Shown here: positions 2,068 through 44,174 of the stretch, piece by piece | How the letters are laid out: each line of letters opens with the position of its first letter | Numbering within the stretch: the stretch's first letter is position 1 | Origin: Pseudomonadota bacterium | GTDB taxonomy: Bacteria; Pseudomonadota; Gammaproteobacteria; Burkholderiales; Burkholderiaceae_C | Reading direction: 5' to 3' | DNA length: 64,000 nucleotides | Assembly (NCBI GenBank): GCA_021848345.1 | Contig: JAJZUV010000002.1 | Location: forward strand, 186,001-250,000 | The notes under the pieces: model-generated | Told to the model about the DNA's origin: nothing | The model's input: the letters and a program-made list of their open reading frames with translations, nothing else | Database searches by the model: none | Program-made: the position numbers and the translations under genes

Positions 2068-5000
2068 TCAGGGCAGGCTGACGCTCAGGCGCGCGCTGGG
2101 CGAGCACTTGGCCTGGCCTGCCCCGAGCACCTCCGGCGCGGCGATGAACTGGCGCGTCGCCGGCACCCCGAGTTTGCTCAGCGCGTCGCGCAGCGCGATG
2201 GCACGGCGCATCGCCAGCGCCTGCAACTGGTCGGCTCCGTCCGGGATGGAGCGCAGCAGCAGCTCCTGCATGGTCGCGGGCGGTACCTCCTTGGCCAGCC
2301 CCAGGGCGTTGCGCGGCTTGTCGGGCAGCGAGGTGGAGCGATAGAGCTGCGCCAGTGCCTGGTCGCGGTCCTTGGCCGGGACCTGGGTGTCCTTCGCGTG
2401 GGCATAGGCCTCGGCGCGCGGCAACTCGCCGCGCCAGGCCTGCAGCAGCCGGCGTTCGAGCACGGCGTGGCGCAAGGCCTGCGCCTCGGCGGCGCCGCAG
2501 CTCGCGCCGGTGATGGTGACCACCAGCTCGGGCTTGGCCTTCAGCAGCCTGGCGATGTCGGCCAGCCGCTGGTTGTCGGCATCGCCCAGGCGTGCCTGAC
2601 CGGCGTCGAAGGGAACCACGTTGAGTTGCGGCGGCGGTGCGGAGCCCGAGAACATGTGGGCCATCAGCGAGAACGGTGAGGTGATGGCGCGCAGCAGGAG
2701 CTTGCCGATGGCCTGCGCGATCACCGCGCCCAGGCTGAAGTGGGGGTCGTTGAGCGAGCCGGAGACCGGGATGTCCAGGTTGATGTTGCCGTTCGGGTCC
2801 TTCAGGAGGTTCACCGCCAGCAGCACCGGCAGCTTGGTCGCCGTCGGGTTGTCGACGTGGGGGCCGAAGGTCAGTTGGCGCAGCACCAGCTTGTTCTCGG
2901 CTTCCAGCTTGCCGCCGGCGTCGATGTCGTAATGCACGTCCATGGACAGCAGGCCGCGCTCGATGCCGTATCCCGCGTACCGGGTCGAGTAGGGCGACAG
3001 GGGCGCCAGTTGCAGGTTGTCCACGCGGCCGTGCACGTCGAGTTGCGGCGGACTGAGCAGCGGGTTGGCCTTGCCCGTCAGGGTCACGGGCGCGGTTCCC
3101 TCGGCCACCGCGCGCAGATCCACCGAGGCCTGCTGCGGCGAGGCCGAGGCGAAGGCTCCGATGCTGCCATGCACCTCGCTCAGGCTGGCCGAGTAATTGG
3201 GCTGCACGAAGTGATCGGCCCAGTCGATGCGCCCGCCGTCCAGCGTGATGCCGCCGATGCGCAGGCTCAGCGCGGGCGCCTTGGCGGGGCCGCCCGCCCC
3301 CTTCGCGGGGGCGGAAGGTGCGGGTGCGGTGGGCGATGCGGCGGAGGCGGCGGAGGCGGGGCGCAGCACTTCGGCCACGTTCAGGCGGGCCTGCGGGCTC
3401 AGGACGAGCCGGGCCTGGAAGTTGTTCAGCAGCACCTGGCCGATGTCCAGGCGCGTGGCCGGGCTCGCGGACGGATCCACGCGCACGCGCATCGATTGCA
3501 GTTGCAGGGAGCGCCAGCCGAGCAGGTTCGCGTCGGGTTGCAGGGTGTTCACCGCGAAGCCGCGCAGCGCCACGTTGCCGTCGAAGGCCAGTCGCGGGCC
3601 CGCCGCGGGCAGCGATACGTCGACGCTGCCGTCGGCGTCGGCGGTACCGCGTACCACCTGGGCGTTCACGCGCGGCAGGTAGTCGCCCGCCACCTGGGCC
3701 GGCAGGCCCTGCGCACGCAGGCGCCCGTGCAGCCTCCAGGGCGCGGAACGCAGCTGGCCCTGCAGGCTCAGCAGCGCGCCCCCGGGCGTCTTGTCTCCCG
3801 CGCGGCCCGAGGGTATCGGGGCCTGGCGTGCATCCACCACCCGAGCCTGCAGGCTCAGGTCGGCGGCGTCGTGCATCGGCCACGCGGCATGGTGCACCTC
3901 GGCATCGATGGCGCTGAAATACAGCACCACCGGGCGCGCGGCGCGGGTGTCGGCGAAGCCCACGGTACCGCCGCGAACGCTCGCGTCGGCCACCTGCACC
4001 GTCCACGGTGGCGAGGCGCCGGCGCCGCGCGCCGCTGGCCCGGCGCGATTGCCGCCGCCGGCGCGTGGAGTCGATGCGGGCCCGGTCGCCGTCGGCAGCA
4101 GTCCCGCGGGCAGGATGTGCTGCAGCGACCACGCACCGCTGGAGTCCCGCGTGATGGCCGCCTGCGGCTGCAGCAGCGCGGCGCTGCCCAGGCGCAGGCT
4201 GTGCGCGTCCAGGTCCAGTCTGGCGTCGCGCAACTGCAGGGCGGCCGCGTGCATGCCGGCCGGGCCGCCGATGGAAGGCTGCTCGACATCGAGGGAGCCG
4301 GCGCCGATGCGCAGCGCGGAGGGTCGGCGGCTCCAGGTCAGGCTGGCGTCGCGCAGCACGACGGCCTTGGCGCGCGGTCCCTGGCCGGCGTCGGCCCCGG
4401 TGGGTTGCCAGCTGAAGTCCTTCCACTGCGCCTCGTTCAGCGCGACGCGCAATGCCTGGTCCTTCCAGCCCACATGGGCGCGTGCCTGAAGGGTTCCGGA
4501 GGGCAGCGGCCCGCCATGCAGCCAGGGTTCGACGTAGGGCTGCGCAAGCCGCGGGTCCAGGCCCTGCAGGTCCACGCCGACGTCGACTCCGGCGGCATCG
4601 GCGCTGGCCTGCAGCTGCAGGCTCAGGCCCCGCGGGCCTTGCAGTTCGGCGCTGGCACGCACCGGATGGGCCGCGCCGGCGGCCGGCAAGGGCCATTGCA
4701 CCGGCCCCACCGTCAGCCGGGGCATGCGCAAGGCCCAGTCCACCTGAGGATGGACGGTGGCGTCGTGCCACTGGAACTGCGCGTCCTGCAGCCTGGCCCC
4801 GGCCAGCTGCAGCTTCCACGGCGCCGGGGCCGGCTTCGCGGCGCCCTTGGCCGGGGCCGCGGCTCGCTCGGGCCGGACGGACACGGTGGGTTCGCCGGCG
4901 CGGGAGGCGGCGCTCGCGCCCGATGCGGGGGCGGCGGCGCCGGAGTCCGGGGGCTGTGCCGGCGCGGCCGCGGCCGGGGCGCTCAAGCCCGCGCGATCGA

Positions 5001-34338: not shown

Positions 34339-36657
34339 TCAGAGCTCGAGCACCAGACGCGTGCCCACGGCGCGCGAGCAGCAGCTCATCATCTTGTCGT
34401 GGCGGGCGCGCTCCGTCGGGGTGAGCACCACGTCGCGGTGGTCGACCTCGCCTTCCAGCACCCGCACCTCGCAGGAACCGCACAGTCCCTCGCAGCAGTC
34501 GCTGGGCAGGTCGATGTTGGCGGCGCGCAGCGCCTGCAGCAGGGTCTGGTCGGCGCCCACGCGGATGCGCTGGCCGCTGTCGCTGAGCTCCACGTCGAAG
34601 GCATGCTCCTTCGTGGGGTCGAGCGCGCCGGCGCCGCCCTGGAAGCGCTCCACGCGCAGCGTGCCCGGCGGCCAGGCGGCCGACAGTTCCTGCAGCGCGT
34701 CGAGCAGGCGCTGCGGGCCGCAGGCGTAGACGCCGCAGCCCGCGGGCAGGTCGCGCAGTTCGCGCGCGTAATCGGCGCGCGCGCCCTGGTCGGCCGCGTG
34801 CAGGCGCAGGCGCTCGCCGTGCAGCGCGCGCAGTTCGTCCACGTAGGCCATGCCGGCGCGGGCGTGGCCGCTGTAGTGCAGCACGTAGTCCATGCCCAGG
34901 CGGCGCGCGCGCAGCGCCATCGCCGCGATGGGCGTGATGCCGATGCCGCCGGCGACGAACACCAGGCTCGGCGCGTTCTCGTCGAAGCCGAAATGGTTGC
35001 GCGGTCCGCGCAGACGCAGGCGGTCGCCCACGCGCAGTCGGGTGTGGATCCAGTGCGAGCCGCCGCGGCCCTCGGGTTCGTGCAGCACGGCCAGGCGCAG
35101 GCGGCGCGTGTCGTCGGGGTCGCCGCACAGCGAGTACTGGCGCGACAGGCCGGTGTCGCCGCATTCCAGGTCCACGTGGGCGCCGGGGCTCCAGCGCGGC
35201 AGCGCGCGCTGGTCGTCGGGCTCCAGTTCGATTTCCAGCACGCGCTCGGCCACGGGGCGCAGCGCCGCCACGCGCACCAGCCGCGCGCCGGTCGCGCGCG
35301 TGGACTCGCCGATGCGCACCGGCTGGCGCGCGTCGAGCAGCGCGGGATCGCGGCGCTCGGGGTTGTCGCGGGGGTCCCACTCGACCCACAGGTGTTCGGG
35401 GCCGCGGAAGGAGATGTTGGGCACGTAGCTGAAACGCTGCTCGGCCAGGCGCATGTGCGGCAGGCGCCGGGACAGTTCCTCCAGGAACACCTGCAGTTCC
35501 AGGCGCGCCAGGTTCTTGCCCATGCATTGATGCGCGCCGTAGCCGAAGGACAGGTGCTCCCCGGCGTTGTCGCGGTGGATGTCGAGCAGGTCGGCGTCGG
35601 TGAAGCGCGCGTCGTCGTGGTTGCCCGAGGTCATCACGATCAGCAGGCGCGAGCCGGCCGGAAGATCCACGCCGCCGACCCGCACGTCGTTCAGGGCCAC
35701 GCGGCGCCAGGCGACGATCGAACCCGACATGCGCAGGCATTCCTCGACCGCGTTGGGGATCAGCGAGGGGTCCTCGCAGATCTCGCGCCATGCGCTGGGG
35801 TGCTCCAGCAGCAGGCGCAGGGCGTTGGCGGTGGCGTTGGCGGTGGTTTCGTGGGCGGCGACGATGCCGGCCATCATCATCGAATGCAGGTAGGAGTCGG
35901 TGACCACGTCCGGATGCTCGGCCTGCATGCGGATGCCGAATTTCATCCAGCCCGGGCCCGAAGGGTCGGCGCGCATCTTGTCGAGGATGCGCCCGGCCAG
36001 GGCCCAGAAGTTGCCCACCGCGTGGGCGACTTCCAGTTGCTGGTCCGGGCTCGGGCGTCCCCAGGTGTTGACGGTATGGGCGATGGAATAACGCCGCAGC
36101 TGGGGCATATCCTCTTCGTCTATGCCCAGGAAGTGCAGCGCGATGGTCAGCGGAACCTCCCACAGCATGGCGTCGACCAGGTCGACGCGGCCGGAGTCGA
36201 TGAACCGGTCCACGTACTCGCGCGCCAGGCGGCGCGCCATGGGTTCGTGCTCGCGCACCGCCTCGGGCGTGAACGGGCCCAGCAGCAGGCGCCTGCGCGC
36301 CATGTGCGCCGGTTCGTCCTCGTTGACCAGGGTGCGGTTCATCGCGTAGCCGTAGGAGGCCATGACGGCCTGCGCCTGCTCGCTGGGCGGGGTGAGCTTT
36401 TCCAGCGCGTTGGACGGGCTGAAGTCGCGGTGGTTGCGGAACACGCCCTTGACGTCCTCGTAGCGCGTGACCACCCAGTAGCCCAGGGCCTCGCTGTAGA
36501 ACACCGGCAGTTGCTCGCGCGCCCAGCGCAGATATCGAGCCGGGTCGTCGTGGTAGCCGCTGGAGAAGGGATCGAAGCGCTCGGCGCCTACGGCGGGACA
36601 GGCGCCGGCGGCGCCGTGCATCGGGCAGCCCGCGGCTGCCGGGGAGGAAGGATTCAT
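34339..36657 (-). CDS. Self-sufficient cytochrome P450 fused to reductase (CYP116B type)
   Basis: Fusion protein of 772 residues. The P450 domain (about 1-430) has the I-helix AAHETT, the ExxR pair Glu306/Arg309 and the heme loop FGYGAHQCMG with Cys378. An FMN/NAD(P)H reductase domain of the phthalate dioxygenase reductase type follows (SRQYSLCGD, GGIGITP, YACGP). A C-terminal plant-type [2Fe-2S] domain has LPSDCCEGLCGSC and a final Cys. This is the layout of P450-RhF/CYP116B, which needs no separate redox partner and oxidises aromatic or aliphatic substrates. ATG at 36657 follows GGAG. A 30-base element sits 18 bases upstream. Confidence 0.94.
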   Translation of the reverse strand: MNPSSPAAAGCPMHGAAGACPAVGAERFDPFSSGYHDDPARYLRWAREQLPVFYSEALGYWVVTRYEDVKGVFRNHRDFSPSNALEKLTPPSEQAQAVMASYGYAMNRTLVNEDEPAHMARRRLLLGPFTPEAVREHEPMARRLAREYVDRFIDSGRVDLVDAMLWEVPLTIALHFLGIDEEDMPQLRRYSIAHTVNTWGRPSPDQQLEVAHAVGNFWALAGRILDKMRADPSGPGWMKFGIRMQAEHPDVVTDSYLHSMMMAGIVAAHETTANATANALRLLLEHPSAWREICEDPSLIPNAVEECLRMSGSIVAWRRVALNDVRVGGVDLPAGSRLLIVMTSGNHDDARFTDADLLDIHRDNAGEHLSFGYGAHQCMGKNLARLELQVFLEELSRRLPHMRLAEQRFSYVPNISFRGPEHLWVEWDPRDNPERRDPALLDARQPVRIGESTRATGARLVRVAALRPVAERVLEIELEPDDQRALPRWSPGAHVDLECGDTGLSRQYSLCGDPDDTRRLRLAVLHEPEGRGGSHWIHTRLRVGDRLRLRGPRNHFGFDENAPSLVFVAGGIGITPIAAMALRARRLGMDYVLHYSGHARAGMAYVDELRALHGERLRLHAADQGARADYARELRDLPAGCGVYACGPQRLLDALQELSAAWPPGTLRVERFQGGAGALDPTKEHAFDVELSDSGQRIRVGADQTLLQALRAANIDLPSDCCEGLCGSCEVRVLEGEVDHRDVVLTPTERARHDKMMSCCSRAVGTRLVLEL

Positions 36658-36674: not shown

Positions 36675-36704
36675 GGCGTAAGTCTAGTACGCAAAGCGTA
36701 ATGC
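36675..36704. promoter_or_regulatory. 30-bp putative IclR operator upstream of the P450 gene
   Basis: Read on the minus strand, the element follows TTACGC-N3-GCGTA-N6-TTACGC: an inverted pair with a third direct half-site. The same layout, base for base in the conserved parts, occurs at 37675-37704 in front of the IclR and binding-protein genes. It lies between the P450 ribosome site and the end of the IclR gene. Confidence 0.7.
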
Positions 36705-36769
36705 ACACGCGGGCAAACCCGTGCCGCGCGGACACGCCGGCCCGGGCGCGAGGATCCGGTCGCGCGAAC

Positions 36770-37621
36770 TCAGGCGCGGCGCGAGGTGGCGCCCGCGCCG
36801 TGGCCCAGCAAGGTGCTGCAGGCCTCGGCTTCGCGGCGCAAGGCTTGCGCCACGGCGCCGTCGGGCGAGGCGTCGAAGCCGCCGCTGGCGCCCAGCACGG
36901 TGAGCACCGCGCACACGGCACCGTTGACGTCGAACAAAGGCGCCGACACCGCGCTGATACCCGGCAGATAGACGTCGCGGATCACCGCCATGCGATGCGC
37001 GCGCACCTCGCGGCGCAACTCGCCCATCGGATCCTTCGCGTCGAGCGTGGCGCGGCGCTCGGAGCTGGAGCGCGCCAGTTCGGCGCGCGCCTGCGCCAGC
37101 ATCGCGGCATCGTCGCGCAGGCCCAGGAACACGCGCCCGGTGGCCGACCACAGCAGCGACATCACCGAGCCCACGCGCACGTTCACGGTGACCGGCAGCA
37201 CCGGTTCCTCGAAGCGCACGATGGTGGGCCCCTTGTTGCCCATGACGGCCAGGAAGCAGGTCAGCCCCAGTTGCTCGCGCAGGCGCGCCAGCGCGGGCTC
37301 GCCGATGCGCACCGGGTCGGCCTGGCGCATTGCCGTCACGCCGATCAGGATCGCCTCGGGCCCCAGGTAGTACTGCTGCGAGGCCGCGTCCTGGCACACC
37401 AGGCCCTCCTCGACGAAACTGGCCAGGTAGCGATGCACCTTGGCGGGGTGCTCCCCCACCTCGGCGGCCAGCGCGCTGAGCCCGGCGCGCCCGCCCAGGC
37501 GGGCCAGCGCCTTGAGCACCGCCACCCCGGTGGCAGCCGCCTGCACGCGCTGGCGGCGAGGCTTGGCCGGCGTTGGAGCCGGAGGGCAGACGGCTTTGGG
37601 AGAGGCGGGAGCACGGGGCAT
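36770..37621 (-). CDS. IclR-family transcriptional regulator
   Basis: Protein of 283 residues. An N-terminal winged helix (about 30-95; VAVLKALARLGGRAGLSALAAEVGEHPAKVHRYLASFVEEGLVCQD) is followed by the IclR effector domain (GNKGPTIVRFEEP, SATGRVFLGL, ISAVSAPLFDVNGAVCAVLTVLG). IclR proteins repress or activate catabolic genes with a small aromatic or organic acid effector. ATG at 37621. It is between the P450 gene and the divergent binding-protein gene, and matching 30-base elements occur in both adjacent control regions. Confidence 0.92.
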   Translation of the reverse strand: MPRAPASPKAVCPPAPTPAKPRRQRVQAAATGVAVLKALARLGGRAGLSALAAEVGEHPAKVHRYLASFVEEGLVCQDAASQQYYLGPEAILIGVTAMRQADPVRIGEPALARLREQLGLTCFLAVMGNKGPTIVRFEEPVLPVTVNVRVGSVMSLLWSATGRVFLGLRDDAAMLAQARAELARSSSERRATLDAKDPMGELRREVRAHRMAVIRDVYLPGISAVSAPLFDVNGAVCAVLTVLGASGGFDASPDGAVAQALRREAEACSTLLGHGAGATSRRA

Positions 37622-37674
37622 GGTGGGCGCCTTTATAGCCCACGGCGCCGTGTTCAGGGTAATCCCGGCGCCAC

Positions 37675-37704
37675 GAATTACGCACCGCGTAGACAATTTA
37701 CGCG
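37675..37704. promoter_or_regulatory. 30-bp putative IclR operator between iclR-type gene and binding-protein gene
   Basis: TTACGC-N3-GCGTA-N6-TTACGC on the plus strand, preceded by GAA and followed by G. It is in the 142-base divergent intergenic region, 54 bases before the regulator start and 60 before the binding-protein start, so it could control both. It matches 36675-36704 in order and spacing of all half-sites. Confidence 0.7.
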
Positions 37705-37763: not shown

Positions 37764-38927
37764 TTGAAACCCTTCGCTCGTCTCGCGCTTGGCGCAACCC
37801 TGTGCGCCGCGGTCGCATCCCCGGCGCTGGCCGACGTGCACGTCGGTCTGGTGCTGTCGCTCACCGGCCCCGCGGCCTCGCTGGGCATTCCCGAGAAGAA
37901 GACCCTGGATCTGCTGCCCAAGGAGATCGCCGGCCAGAAGATCGACTACACGGTGCTCGACGATCGCTCCGATCCCACCGAGGCCGTGAAGGACACGCGC
38001 CAGCTGATCGACGTGGACAAGGTCGCGCTGGTCATCGGCGCGTCCACCACGCCCAGCTCGCTGGCCATGGTGGACGTGGTGGGGCAGGCGGCGGTGCCCA
38101 ACATCTCGCTGGCCTCGGGCAAGAGCATCGTGTTCCCGGTGCAGGGCAACCGGGAGTACGTGTTCAACTCGGTGCAGACCACCGCGCTGATGGCGCATTC
38201 CACCGCCCAGTACATGGCCCAGCACGGCGTGCACAAGGTGGCCTTCATCGGCTTCGCCAACGCGCTCGGCGAGGACTGGTTGCAGAATTTCGGCACCGAG
38301 GCGAAGAAGCAGGGCATCGACATCGTCGACGTGGAGCGCTTCGAGCCCACCGCCACCTCGGTCACCGGCGAGGTGCTGCACATCCTGGCCGCCAAGCCCC
38401 AGGCGGTACTGATCGCCGCGTCGGGAACTCCGGCCGCGCTGCCGCAGCGCGAGCTGAAGAAGGTGGGCTACAAGGGGCAGATCTACCAGACCCATGGCGT
38501 GGCCAACCCGGACTTCCTGCGCGTGTGCGGCGCCGACTGCGACGGCACGCTGCTGTCCCTGTCGCCCGGGGTCGTGGCGCGCCAGCTGCCGGCGACGAGC
38601 CCGGTCAAGGCCTCGGCGATGCGCTACGCCCAGGCGTACGAGGGCGCCTACGGGCGCCATACCCTGTCGCAGTTCAGCGTGGGTGCCTGGGATGCGGGCG
38701 TGATGATGGAACAGGCGATTCCGGTGGCCCTCCAACACGCGAGCCCGAAGGATCTGCCGGCCTTCCGCAAGGCCTTGCGCGATGCGCTGGAGGGCCTGCA
38801 CGGCGTGGCGGGTGCGCAGGGCGTCTACGACATGAGCCCGAGCAACCACAACGGGCTGGATGAACGCGCGGTCGCGGTCGCCGAGATCCGCGGCGGCGAC
38901 TGGAAGTTGATCAGCTACGGCAAGTGA
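37764..38927 (+). CDS. ABC transporter periplasmic binding protein, type 1 (LivJ-like)
   Basis: Protein of 387 residues with a signal peptide ending ASPALA-DV. The type 1 periplasmic fold shows GLVLSLTGPAASLGIPEKKTLDLLP, DDRSDPTEAVKDTRQLI, VIGASTTPSSLAMVDV and VAFIGFANALGEDWL. The start is a TTG at 37764 with GAGGAG about seven bases upstream; no ATG fits the signal peptide. These proteins bind branched-chain amino acids, amides or aromatic acids for ABC uptake. No permease or ATPase gene is nearby, so it must share a transporter. Divergent from the IclR gene. Confidence 0.9.
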   Translation: MKPFARLALGATLCAAVASPALADVHVGLVLSLTGPAASLGIPEKKTLDLLPKEIAGQKIDYTVLDDRSDPTEAVKDTRQLIDVDKVALVIGASTTPSSLAMVDVVGQAAVPNISLASGKSIVFPVQGNREYVFNSVQTTALMAHSTAQYMAQHGVHKVAFIGFANALGEDWLQNFGTEAKKQGIDIVDVERFEPTATSVTGEVLHILAAKPQAVLIAASGTPAALPQRELKKVGYKGQIYQTHGVANPDFLRVCGADCDGTLLSLSPGVVARQLPATSPVKASAMRYAQAYEGAYGRHTLSQFSVGAWDAGVMMEQAIPVALQHASPKDLPAFRKALRDALEGLHGVAGAQGVYDMSPSNHNGLDERAVAVAEIRGGDWKLISYGK

Positions 38928-40005: not shown

Positions 40006-40704
40006 ATGTTCGCTCCCCGATCGATTTCCCGACCCCGCGCTCCGGAAACCCCCTGGACGGGCTCGCGCGCGGTGGCCGCGGGTGACGCGGGCCTTTGCAT
40101 GGATGCCGCGATCGCGCTCGCGGCGGCGGTCCGCCATGCCGGACTGGGGGTGATGGCTCTGGGCAACGGGGGCCGACTGCTCTACGCCAACGAGGTCGCC
40201 CGATCCTGTCTGGGGCTCGGTGGTCCGTTGCGCCTTCGTCAAGGGCGCTTGGTGGCGACCGGTGCGGCCGGGCGCTATGTGTTCGAAGCCCTGGCGCGAC
40301 TGGACCAGACCGGGCGCCCCCAGTTCTTCGCGTTGCAGGGGCCGGCACGCGTGGCGGGCGGGACCGGAGCGGCCGCGCAGGCCTTTGCCGTCACGGCCTG
40401 CATCGAGGAACTCGGGCGCGTGCGCCAGCGCGTCCTGATCCTGGAGCCATTCGGCGAGCGCGGCCCGCTGGACGAGACGGCGCTGAGCCATTGGCTGGGC
40501 CTGACCGGCGCCCAGGCACGCGTGGCCGCCGCGCTGTCACGCGGTCTTTCCCCGGAAGAGGTCGCCAGGCATTGCGGTCGTTCGATCGCCACCATACGCA
40601 CCCATATCCGCGGGATCCTCGAACGCACCAACCTGGAAAGCCTGCAGCAGCTCTACCGCGCCCTGGCCGGCCTGGGCCGCGGCTGGTTCGCGGCATCCAG
40701 GTAA
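40006..40704 (+). CDS. LuxR-type HTH regulator with PAS-like N-terminus
   Basis: Protein of 232 residues. The N-terminal part (about 35-140) resembles a PAS fold ([42 protein letters not shown]). The C-terminus is a LuxR/GerE helix-turn-helix ([51 protein letters not shown]). ATG at 40006 has no good ribosome site; ATG at 40099 is an alternative. The last 52 bases overlap the convergent D-serine dehydratase gene. Effector and targets are unknown. Confidence 0.82.
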
Positions 40705-42011
40705 GCCCGCATCTCGGCCTCGGGCACCATGCCGCCGCCGGTCGCCCACGCCAGGTGGGTCGCCGCGCGCGCGGATTCGGGCACGCGCGTGCAGGCGGCG
40801 AAGCCGGCCAGCGCCGAGGGTTCCAGGCGCAGGCCTTCGCTGCGATCCAGCAGCGCCAGCAAGCCCAGCAACTCCGCGTCGTCCACCGTGCAGTAGCCGT
40901 CCACCAGGTGCTGCACGGTGCGTCCGACGAGAGCCGAGGCGCGGCCCACGGCAAGCCCATCGGCGATGGTGCGGTTGTCGATGCCGAAATCCTGCACCGA
41001 CACCGCGTCGTGCAGCCCGGTGTACACGCCCAGCAGCATGCAGGGTGAATGCGTGGGTTCGGCGAACAGGCAGTGCACGGCGTCGCCGAAGGCGAGCTTC
41101 AGCCCGAAGGCCACGCCGCCCGGCGCGCCGCCGACCCCGCAGGGCAGGTGCACCCACAGCGGGTGCTCGGCGTCCACGCGCACTCCCGCCTCGTCGAGCT
41201 GGTCGCGCAGGCGCCGTGCGGCGACCGCGTAGCCGAGGAACAGCTGGCGCGAGTTCTCGTCGTCGACGAAGTGGCAGCGCGGGTCGGCGGCGGCCTCGTC
41301 GCGGCCCTCGCGCACGGCGGCACCGTAGTCGCCGGCATGCTCCACCACGCGCACGCCGCGTTCGCGCAGCAGGCGCTTTTTCCATTCCCGCGCATCGGCC
41401 GACATGTGCACGCTGACCTGAAAGCCCAGCGCGGCGCCGACGATGCCGATGGAAAGCCCCAGGTTGCCGGTGGAGGCCACCGCGATGCGGTGCGCGGCGA
41501 ACAGCTCACGCGCGGGAGCATCGGCCAGTCGGGCGTAGTCGTCGTCCGGGCGCAGCAGGCCCGCGGCCAGCGCCAGGCTTTCCGCCTGCTGCAGCACCTC
41601 GTGGATGCCGCCGCGCGCCTTGATCGAGCCGGAGATGGGCAGATGGCTGTCCAGCTTGACCCACAGATCCCCGTGGTGCGGCGCGCCGTGGCGTTGGCGC
41701 AGCGCCTCGCGCATGGCGGGAAGTCGCCGCAGCGGCGATTCGATCAGCCCTTGCCGCGGCGCCGTCTCGGGAAACACCCGCGCCACCCACGGCGCGAAAC
41801 GCTGCAGCCGCCGGGCCGCCTCGTCCACGTCGGCCTCGCCCAGGGCGCAGCCGGCCAGCGCCGACGTGGCCGGTTGCAGGGCAGGGTTGAACCAGGTGGT
41901 CTCGCGCAGCGCCATCAACTCGCGCAGCAGCGGATGGCTGCGCAGCCAGTCCTCGACGCCGCGCCCGGCGATCGTGGCCTGCCCCTGCGCCCCGGGGATC
42001 GCGTCGTGCAT
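40653..42011 (-). CDS. dsdA: D-serine ammonia-lyase (DsdA type)
   Basis: PLP fold-type II enzyme of 452 residues that converts D-serine to pyruvate and ammonia. The PLP lysine is Lys131 in [14 protein letters not shown], the DsdA hallmark. Other family parts are [61 protein letters not shown] and the C-terminal [17 protein letters not shown] at 42011 overlaps the GntR stop by one base, so the two are one operon. A related hydroxy-amino-acid dehydratase activity cannot be excluded. Confidence 0.92.
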
Positions 42012-42682
42012 CACGGCGCGGTCACGGCCACCAGGCGCTGGTAGCCGCGTCCGACGTGGGCGCGCATGGTCTGCGCCGCGCGCTCGGGTTCGCGCGTGGC
42101 CAGCGCATCGACGATCGCACGGTGCTCGTCCTGCGAGGCATGGCTTTCATGGGTGACGGAGAAGTAGCGCCGGCGCAGCAGGTGCATGCGGTCGATCACG
42201 CGGCGGTAGAACTCCAGCAAGGTGGCGTTGCCGGTCATTTGCACCACGCGGTCGTGGAAGTCGATGTTCAGCGAGAAGTAGGAGGTCATGTCGCCGCGCC
42301 CGGCGGCATCGTCGAGGCGCTTGAGCAGGGTACGCAGTTCCTTGAGCTGCGCCTCGGTGATGCGCGGCGCCAGCAGGCGCCCGGTGGCCTCGTCCAGCGC
42401 GGCGCGAAGTTCGTAGAGTTCGCGCGCCTCGGTCTCGCCGATCTCGCGCACGAACACCCCGCGGTTCTTCTCCAGCTTCACCAGTCCGGCGGCCTCCAGG
42501 CCCCGGAAGGCCTCGCGGATGGGGGCCCGGCTGACCTTGAAGTGCTGCGCGAAGCTCAGCTCGTTGAGCTTGTCTCCCGCGGCCAGCTCTCCGGTCTTGA
42601 TCAGGCGCAGGATCTCCTCGTGCACCAGGTCGGAAACCGAGCGCGTCTGGAGGATCTGGAGATTGCTGAGAGCCGTGGTCAT
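42011..42682 (-). CDS. GntR-family regulator with FCD domain
   Basis: Protein of 223 residues. The winged helix (about 15-75; [50 protein letters not shown]) is followed by an all-helical FCD ligand domain with potential metal ligands in [19 protein letters not shown] and RAHV. Such regulators bind organic acids and recognise TNGTNNNACNA-like palindromes; a TTGTCGACAA site lies in the divergent region. It is in an operon with dsdA and divergent from the MmgE/PrpD gene. Confidence 0.92.
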
Positions 42683-42782
42683 GCACTTCCTCGAGGTCCG
42701 GCGGGCCGTTCCCGCAGGTGTGCGAATCGTAGCGTGAAGGCATAGCGTGAAGGCACTCGACCCTGGTCGGATGTTCATGTAG

Positions 42783-42796
42783 GATTGTCGACAATC
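42783..42796. promoter_or_regulatory. Probable GntR operator
   Basis: GATTGTCGACAATC is a perfect 14-bp palindrome containing TTGTCGACAA, the typical core of FCD-type GntR operators. It is 101 bases before the GntR start and 29 before the MmgE/PrpD start, in the 142-base divergent region. A further CGACAA follows on the right. Confidence 0.65.
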
Positions 42797-42824
42797 GACA
42801 AATTGCACCGCAGGAGGGCCGCCC

Positions 42825-44174
42825 ATGTCCGATCAAGCCGAACCCGTCACCGCCACGCTGGCGAACTATCTGGTGCAAGCCAGGCCCGAGGAGCTGCCCA
42901 CGGCCGTGCGGGAGGAGGCGGTGCGCACCTTCGTCAACTGGGTTGGTTGCGCCGTGGGCGGCTCGCGTCACGAGGCGGTGGAGGCGGGGCTGGCCGCGCT
43001 CGGGCCGTTCTCGGGGCCGCCGCGTGCCAGCCTGCTGGGGCGCGCGGAGCGCGTCGACCCCCTGCTGGCCGCGCTGCTCAACGGCATCAGCTCGCACGTG
43101 TTCGACTTCGACGACACCCACCTGCGCACGGTGATCCATCCCGCCGGTCCGGTGGCCAGCGCGCTGCTCGCCTTCGCCGAGCACCGGCCGGTGCGCGGCG
43201 AGGACTTTCTCCATGCCCTGGTGCTGGGCGTGGAGGTGGAGTGCCGCATCGGCAACGCGGTGTTTCCGGCCCACTATGACATCGGTTGGCACATCACCGG
43301 CAGCGCCGGCGTGTTCGGCGCGGCCGCCGCGGTGGGCAAACTGCTGGGACTGGATGCACGGGGCATGGCCTGGGCGCTGGGCCTGGCGGCGACCCAGCCG
43401 GTGGGTCTGCGCGAGATGTTCGGCTCGATGACCAAGAGCTTCCATCCGGGGCGCGCCGCGCAGAACGGCATGACCGCCGCCCTGCTGGCGTCGCGGGGCT
43501 ACACCAGCTCCGAGCAGGCGCTGGAGGCGCGGCGCGGCTGGCTCAACGTGCTCAGCGTCCGTCACGATGCGAGCGCCATCACCCAAGGCCTGGGCGAGAC
43601 CTACGAGATTTCGGTCAACAGCTACAAGCCCTTTGCCTGCGGCATCGTGATCCATCCGGTGATCGACGCCTGCCTGCAACTGCGCGAGCGCGAGAACTTC
43701 GAGCTCGATGCCGTGCGTGCGGTGCGCCTGCGCGTGCATCCTCTGGTGCTCGAGCTCACCGGCAAGACCGAGCCGCGCAGCGGCCTGGAGGGCAAGTTCA
43801 GCGTGTTCCACGCGGCCGCCGTGGCGCTGCGCGAAGGCGACGGCGGCGAGCGCCAGTTCAGCGACCGCGCCGTGCTCGATCCGGCGGTGGTGGCGCTGCG
43901 GCGCAAGGTGAGCGCCAGCATCGACGACGCCCTGGAGGCCGACGCGGCGCGCGTCGACATCGAACTGGTCGACGGGCGCAGGCTGGAACTGCACGTGGAG
44001 CACGCCATCGGCAGCAAGCACCGCCCCATGGGCCATGCGGACCTGGAGCGCAAGTTCCTCGGCCTCGCGGACGAGGTGCTCGGCCGGGCGCGCGCCCGGC
44101 GCCTGCTCGACGCCTGCTGGAGCGTCGAGCATCTGGAAGACGTCGCGGCCATCGCCGCGGCCGCGCGGACGTAG
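42825..44174 (+). CDS. MmgE/PrpD family protein
   Basis: Protein of 449 residues of the MmgE/PrpD fold, which includes 2-methylcitrate dehydratase and cis-aconitate decarboxylase. Family features are VNWVGCAVGGSRHEAVE, NGISSHVFDFDDTH, PVASALLAFAEHR, VFPAHYDIGWHITGSAGVFGAAAAVGKLLGL, GSMTKSFHPGRAAQNG and NSYKPFACGIVIHPVIDA. The substrate differs widely in the family and cannot be read here. It starts a likely operon with an MFS transporter and an isocitrate/isopropylmalate-type dehydrogenase, under the probable GntR operator. Confidence 0.88.
   Translation: MSDQAEPVTATLANYLVQARPEELPTAVREEAVRTFVNWVGCAVGGSRHEAVEAGLAALGPFSGPPRASLLGRAERVDPLLAALLNGISSHVFDFDDTHLRTVIHPAGPVASALLAFAEHRPVRGEDFLHALVLGVEVECRIGNAVFPAHYDIGWHITGSAGVFGAAAAVGKLLGLDARGMAWALGLAATQPVGLREMFGSMTKSFHPGRAAQNGMTAALLASRGYTSSEQALEARRGWLNVLSVRHDASAITQGLGETYEISVNSYKPFACGIVIHPVIDACLQLRERENFELDAVRAVRLRVHPLVLELTGKTEPRSGLEGKFSVFHAAAVALREGDGGERQFSDRAVLDPAVVALRRKVSASIDDALEADAARVDIELVDGRRLELHVEHAIGSKHRPMGHADLERKFLGLADEVLGRARARRLLDACWSVEHLEDVAAIAAAART

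Follow-up and report, generated by a model that had tools for sequence, protein, structure and literature searches.

Conserved three-box elements as candidate operators of an OhpR-type IclR regulator at a self-sufficient P450 locus of a Thiomonas-like bacterium

The stretch of DNA analyzed here, referred to as the window, comprises 64,000 nucleotides of a contig from a Pseudomonadota bacterium of the order Burkholderiales. Three genes in the middle of the window are the subject of this report: a P450 gene and an adjacent regulator gene on the minus strand, and a binding-protein gene on the plus strand.

34339 to 36657, minus strand: self-sufficient P450 of the CYP116B/OhpA type, 772 amino acids, with P450, reductase and 2Fe-2S ferredoxin parts
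36770 to 37621, minus strand: OhpR-like regulator of the IclR family, 283 amino acids, Pfam HTH_IclR and IclR_C above cut-off
37764 to 38927, plus strand: LivK-like periplasmic binding protein, 387 amino acids, Peripla_BP_6 with an E value of 1.6e-46

The P450 scores above the Pfam cut-offs for p450 and Fer2 and matches the PDB entries 6kbh and 6laa across nearly its full length with high similarity; nothing unusual was seen in these domain and structure matches. P450, reductase and ferredoxin are joined in one chain, as they are in the CYP116B enzymes P450 RhF, C. metallidurans CYP116B1, 6kbh and 6laa. The IclR protein reaches 69.6 bits against the PcaR/PcaU/PobR model TIGR02431, below its curated cut-off of 284.75, and is therefore not filed in that subfamily; against the BhcR equivalog NF045644 it reaches 75.8 bits, below the curated cut-off of 350. 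The gene for the LivK-like protein starts with TTG, preceded by GGAGAT, and no transporter partner for the protein was found among the nine neighboring proteins scanned. Further along the window, at 40653-44174, a D-serine ammonia-lyase that exceeds its cut-off with 645 bits, a GntR regulator scoring just under the phnR_burk cut-off (245.5 versus 271.5) and an MmgE/PrpD protein adjoin one another.

By sequence comparison, the source organism is close to Thiomonas. The P450 of Thiomonas sp. FB-6 (locus L158) is 92% identical to that of the window and the gene order is the same; this Thiomonas locus is in turn identical over 12.3 kb to a same-genus genome (G308). Within the set of the 80 best of 586 relatives, a proteobacterial metagenome bin (L106) is, at 98%, nearer to the window than L158. 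The LivK-like protein occurs, among the loci searched, in the Thiomonas-like ones only (the window, L065/L158 and L106).

Two short elements lie upstream of these genes. The first-pass annotation had described them as identically built and on opposite strands, and both are indeed present, each matching TTACGC-N3-GCGTA-N6-TTACGC exactly; the two additional matching flank bases that it had reported are g and a, located 3 bases and 1 base before the core.

36676 to 36701, minus strand: core of candidate operator site A, TTACGCTTTGCGTACTAGACTTACGC, exact pattern match; box 1 at 36696-36701, box 2 at 36688-36692, box 3 at 36676-36681; directed at the P450 gene
37678 to 37703, plus strand: core of candidate operator site B, TTACGCACCGCGTAGACAATTTACGC, exact pattern match; box 1 at 37678-37683, box 2 at 37687-37691, box 3 at 37698-37703; located between the divergent genes for IclR and the binding protein and pointing toward the binding-protein gene

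A spacing of 18 bp separates the end of site A from the P450 ATG (36657); site B is 56 bp away from the IclR ATG (37621) and 60 bp away from the TTG of the binding-protein gene (37764). The earlier judgment that such an arrangement is too ordered for chance is borne out by the controls: at up to 3 mismatches the window holds two matches, both exact, and 100 dinucleotide shuffles of the window gave a mean of 0.03 matches, with 0 of 100 yielding two. The genome-wide search that had been proposed was also carried out, over a host assembly of 3.26 Mb that is 93.7% complete, and it returned no other copies at up to 2 mismatches. At up to 3 mismatches there is one further match, carrying 3 mismatches, and the control pattern read backward gives 8.

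The gene set resembles a system described in Cupriavidus pinatubonensis JMP134, composed of ohpR, ohpT and ohpA, in which the CYP116B enzyme OhpA converts 2-hydroxyphenylacetate (2-HPA) to homogentisate and ohpT encodes a Bug-type binding protein (PMC8449657). This natural role of CYP116B was reported only in 2021 (PMC8449657). In that work, 2-HPA raised the ohpR and ohpT transcripts, and a PohpT-GFP fusion carried by a 1062-bp fragment (ohpR plus the ohpT upstream region) was induced by 2-HPA and showed no induction by phenylacetate, phenylalanine, tyrosine, 3-HPA or 4-HPA (PMC8449657). Among the strains tested there, the presence of ohpA and growth on 2-HPA matched perfectly (PMC8449657). 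The main text of the paper does not mention Thiomonas, nor does it contain the words "binding site", and no OhpR operator was seen in the part of the paper covered (PMC8449657).

The published primers connect this system to the element found in the window. In one Cupriavidus genome (G819, locus L199), 10 of 10 ohp primers tested match exactly and the promoter primers span 1062 bp, as published, from which we infer that G819 is JMP134 or a close relative. The motif lies in exact form within the L199 1062-bp fragment, 30 bp before the ohpT ATG, so that the window shares its operator-like element with the fragment that carries the inducible promoter. The window further resembles the JMP134 ohp locus in its CYP116B P450, its adjacent OhpR-like IclR and its binding-protein gene; its IclR and P450 proteins are 66% and 64% identical, respectively, to those of L199. 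As was looked for in an OhpR/OhpA regulon, the host genome encodes two homogentisate-pathway enzymes, homogentisate dioxygenase (hmgA) and fumarylacetoacetase, both above curated cut-offs. The pattern is not shared with these genes, since neither TTACG nor CGTAA occurs in the two stretches examined around hmgA and the fumarylacetoacetase gene (L034, L104). The two loci differ in layout. JMP134 has an ohpT-ohpA operon, divergent from ohpR and driven by a single operator. In the window, iclR is flanked by the P450 gene on one side and the binding-protein gene on the other, and these two genes have an operator each. Separate operators before the P450 and beside IclR were seen in nine loci (the window, L071, L074, L106, L108, L111, L137, L158 and L162). 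Furthermore, the binding protein of the window is Peripla_BP_6/LivK-like, unlike the TctC/Bug-type OhpT; in four relatives scanned, the gene downstream of the operator is of the TctC/Bug type in all four. The first-pass annotation proposed a single IclR regulator for both the uptake and the oxidation of the same compound, and this agrees with the ohpR/ohpT/ohpA system (PMC8449657).

Conservation of the motif was assessed in loci picked by protein or primer match and never by the motif itself, which was counted anywhere in the locus stretch. P450 relatives came from 399 genomes of the same family and from 80 named contigs, the best 80 of 586 and hence a set skewed toward close relatives. IclR relatives were taken from genomes of the order (9 of 399, E up to 1e-60) and from plasmids (3 of 7 records with a 60-80% identical IclR), and two Cupriavidus genomes were added by primer match (2 of 60). 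Removal of six duplicate loci and of L065, which is on the same contig as L158, left 124 loci, the window included.

The motif accompanies the IclR orthologue. Where an IclR of at least 45% identity is present, 99 of 102 loci carry the motif at up to 2 mismatches (83 exact, 14 with one mismatch, 2 with two), which upholds the expectation that it would be found beside orthologous IclR genes. Of the three exceptions, L085 keeps boxes 1 and 3 along with a half-site like box 4, and L086 and L103 depart from the pattern by 3 and 4 mismatches, respectively. More distant IclR proteins of 38-45% identity (L015-L033) do not share the motif, as 0 of 19 such loci have it at up to 3 mismatches and 2 have a match at 4. 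Outside the 102 stand L132 and L168 (Cupriavidus gilardii and a relative), with an IclR of 43-44% identity and the motif at 2 and 1 mismatches. In these, two operator-like sites lie 64 bp apart by the IclR gene, at about 4600-4850 of the locus, and in some of the sites all four boxes are well formed; this IclR may be a paralogue whose operator has four boxes.

The P450 gene by itself does not account for the motif. Among 19 P450 loci without an IclR of at least 45% identity in the stretch examined, 16 lack the motif and 3 have it, which refutes a tie to the P450 gene alone; 12 of the 16 include at least 1.3 kb of upstream DNA and 4 include less than 1 kb. Other control of such P450 genes thus exists. 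Several loci, among them L080, L081, L088, L090, L092, L115, L126, L128 and L151, encode a P450 64-69% identical to that of the window and have neither IclR nor motif in the stretch examined. One of them (L126, P450 67% identical) is on a contig labeled as a Rickettsia typhi metagenome bin, which is probably mislabeled or mixed.

Whole-genome counts were made as well. Exact copies occur in 14 of the 399 family genomes, all within the 37 that have a full-length P450 orthologue (Fisher p 2.6e-16), and at up to one mismatch the motif occurs in 25 of these 37 versus 3 of the 362 without the orthologue (p 1.7e-27). In two genomes (G031 and G152) the 3 kb around a one-mismatch copy contain no relative of IclR, P450 or LivK, and in G044 a copy at up to one mismatch accompanies a 48% identical IclR next to a more distant P450-like gene. 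The backward control pattern matches 21 of 399 family genomes at up to one mismatch, so isolated one-mismatch matches elsewhere mean little. In 12 chosen genomes searched at up to 2 mismatches, an exact copy lies at the IclR locus in 8 of the 8 that have the orthologue, accompanied by 4 further stray matches without IclR, P450 or LivK relatives nearby; the other 4 genomes have none. Exact copies are also present in C. metallidurans CH34 and on a Burkholderia multivorans plasmid, from a strain other than that of PMC8449657. Taken together, the window shuffles and the searches of the host genome and the 399 genomes rule out chance or a widespread repeat as the source of the pattern. Separately, nine Pandoraea loci (L112, L114, L116, L117, L119, L121, L122, L124 and L125) share an operator-like sequence with 3 mismatches, TTACGCTTTGCGGAAGTTTATATCGC, about 3-5 kb past the P450 gene, two letters of which differ in L125; it may be coding sequence or a further target.

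The collected sites, 116 at up to 2 mismatches (86 exact, 22 with one, 8 with two), show how the element is built and oriented. They reduce to 87 non-redundant sites, or 93 when a longer stretch is compared. Across the 87, the 17 box positions are 93-100% invariant, the flanks vary, and the spacers are A+T-rich. The motif has a polarity: 89 of the 116 sites are divergent from the adjoining IclR gene and 21 more stand before the P450 gene, so that 110 of 116 point at a P450 gene or away from a divergent IclR gene. A fourth box forming a strict tandem palindrome is not the rule, as box 4 agrees at five or all six positions in only 8 of 93 sites. Loci near to four boxes are L093, L094 and L168; L085 has lost box 2. 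The full form of the operator may be two tandem palindromes with box 4 mostly degenerate, the window sites having three boxes.

A promoter element appears to be embedded in the motif. Of 93 sites, 76 have a hexamer that overlaps box 2 or the spacer, carries T1, A2 and T6, and agrees with TATAAT at 4 or more of its 6 positions. When the spacers were shuffled 200 times, the count averaged 40 and never exceeded 50, and five control stretches gave 0-3 of 93. The hexamer starts variably at motif position 13, 15, 16 or 17, and the -35 region of the aligned promoters is weak. Site A has such a hexamer; at site B none passes the same test, the best being GACAAT.

36681 to 36686, minus strand: -10-like hexamer TAGACT, identical to TATAAT at 4 of 6 positions, lying partly in the spacer and partly in box 3 of site A

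A second dyad, resembling GGGTWANCCC, is conserved in a position-specific manner about 10-23 bp upstream of box 1 in roughly half of the promoters, around -43 from the predicted start site.

36711 to 36720, minus strand: upstream dyad of site A, GGGTTTGCCC, separated from box 1 by 9 bp
37657 to 37666, plus strand: upstream dyad of site B, GGGTAATCCC, separated from box 1 by 11 bp

The dyad scores at least 7 of 8 in 50 of 93 sites versus 0 of 93 in two control stretches, and does so in 46 of 75 divergent sites and 4 of 18 others. The strict form (GGGT, 2-4 A/T, CCC) has 13 copies no more than 60 bp from an operator and 5 at other places; with 11.7 expected overall in the 1.32 Mb of locus DNA, this is not a generally common sequence in that DNA. 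When both strands are counted, 25 copies of the 11-base sequence AGGGTTAACCC (20 places) are present in 7 genomes, and the backward pattern has 1; AGGGTTAACCC is over-represented in several Burkholderiales genomes, and several copies lie upstream of open reading frames in a crude call. A literature search with GGGTTAACCC yielded no bacterial regulator in the titles among the matches listed. The dyad may be the site of a second regulator, and that regulator could be an activator. A tentative extension is that ohp promoters are composite switches, in which OhpR would occupy two tandem palindromes around the -10 element and a second factor the dyad; it is equally tentative that OhpR usually fills three of the four half-sites and that the dyad stands at the position of a class II activator.

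Three-box operators are known in the IclR family, for PcaU, PobR and HmgR, and have been predicted for 32 orthologous groups (PMC8222616). The present sites are alike in combining a palindromic pair with a third, external box at fixed spacing, and the HmgR core ATTACG-N5-CGTAAT is close to the TTACG-N5-CGTA of the window sites (PMC8222616). The regulator and the genes differ from those of the PcaU, PobR and HmgR systems. The main text of PMC8222616 mentions no P450, cytochrome or TctC; OhpR may nevertheless be among the 32 predicted groups. The architecture is thus already of a known kind; what is probably new is an OhpR-type candidate operator, with firm comparative support.

In the reading that we prefer, with a probability of about 0.82, both elements are operators of the adjoining OhpR-type IclR, and repression of the P450 and binding-protein genes is relieved by 2-HPA. 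An IclR dimer, or half a tetramer, would bind the palindrome of box 1 and box 2, while a further subunit would bind box 3, which sits 20 bp, or about two helical turns, from box 1 and so on the same face. Since a -10-like hexamer overlaps box 2 or the spacer in most relatives, RNA polymerase would start near box 3 and be blocked by the bound regulator. The inducer, by homology most likely 2-HPA, would release the regulator and thereby turn on the P450, for 5-hydroxylation to homogentisate, from site A and the LivK-like protein, a putative uptake component, from site B. The regulator probably also controls its own gene, given that site B is near the iclR start.

The sign of regulation could be the reverse. 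PcaU and PobR are activators of their catabolic operons, and OhpR might likewise recruit polymerase at the operator. Among described architectures, that of the three-box PcaU and PobR sites comes closest (PMC8222616), and both the poor -35 region of the aligned promoters and the failure of site B to offer a passing -10-like hexamer would fit activation. However, in 76 of 93 sites a -10-like hexamer coincides with part of the operator, and an activator bound upstream of a -35 element at site A would require a start site within or beyond the P450 start codon. This overlap favors repression, the case being clearer for site A than for site B, and the hexamer in the spacer together with the 18 bp between site A and the P450 ATG makes repression the most likely mode, with activation an unlikely one. 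That the site belongs instead to a different, co-conserved regulator and merely adjoins the IclR gene is very improbable. The second dyad does indicate that other factors may act at these promoters, but the motif follows the IclR orthologue (it is present in 99 of 102 loci that have the orthologue and in 3 of 19 P450 loci that lack it in the stretch examined), it adjoins the IclR gene even in G361, where the P450 is on another contig, and its box resembles the HmgR site ATTACGTTATTCGTAAT (PMC8222616, Table 1).

The identity of the inducer also leaves room for doubt. The same operator might respond here to another aromatic compound or to an alkane, given that identity between the P450 proteins of the window and of the JMP134-like locus is only 64%, that the binding protein is of another family than OhpT, and that CYP116B enzymes accept many substrates, with an alkane role claimed for one (PMC8449657). 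Against this stand the perfect correspondence of ohpA with growth on 2-HPA in the tested strains (PMC8449657) and the two homogentisate-pathway enzymes of the host genome, so that a substrate other than 2-HPA seems rather unlikely.

CYP116B enzymes are studied as biocatalysts, and the present motif provides a specific, conserved candidate operator for the native regulator of such an enzyme across many Burkholderiales. Its pattern can serve as a search string for such loci, and the operators are candidate parts for a 2-HPA biosensor. The replacement of a TctC/Bug-type by a LivK-like protein suggests that the transporter-like component is exchangeable while the operator stays constant. If the ohp promoters were composite switches, 2-HPA catabolism would be gated both by its substrate and by a second, wider signal.
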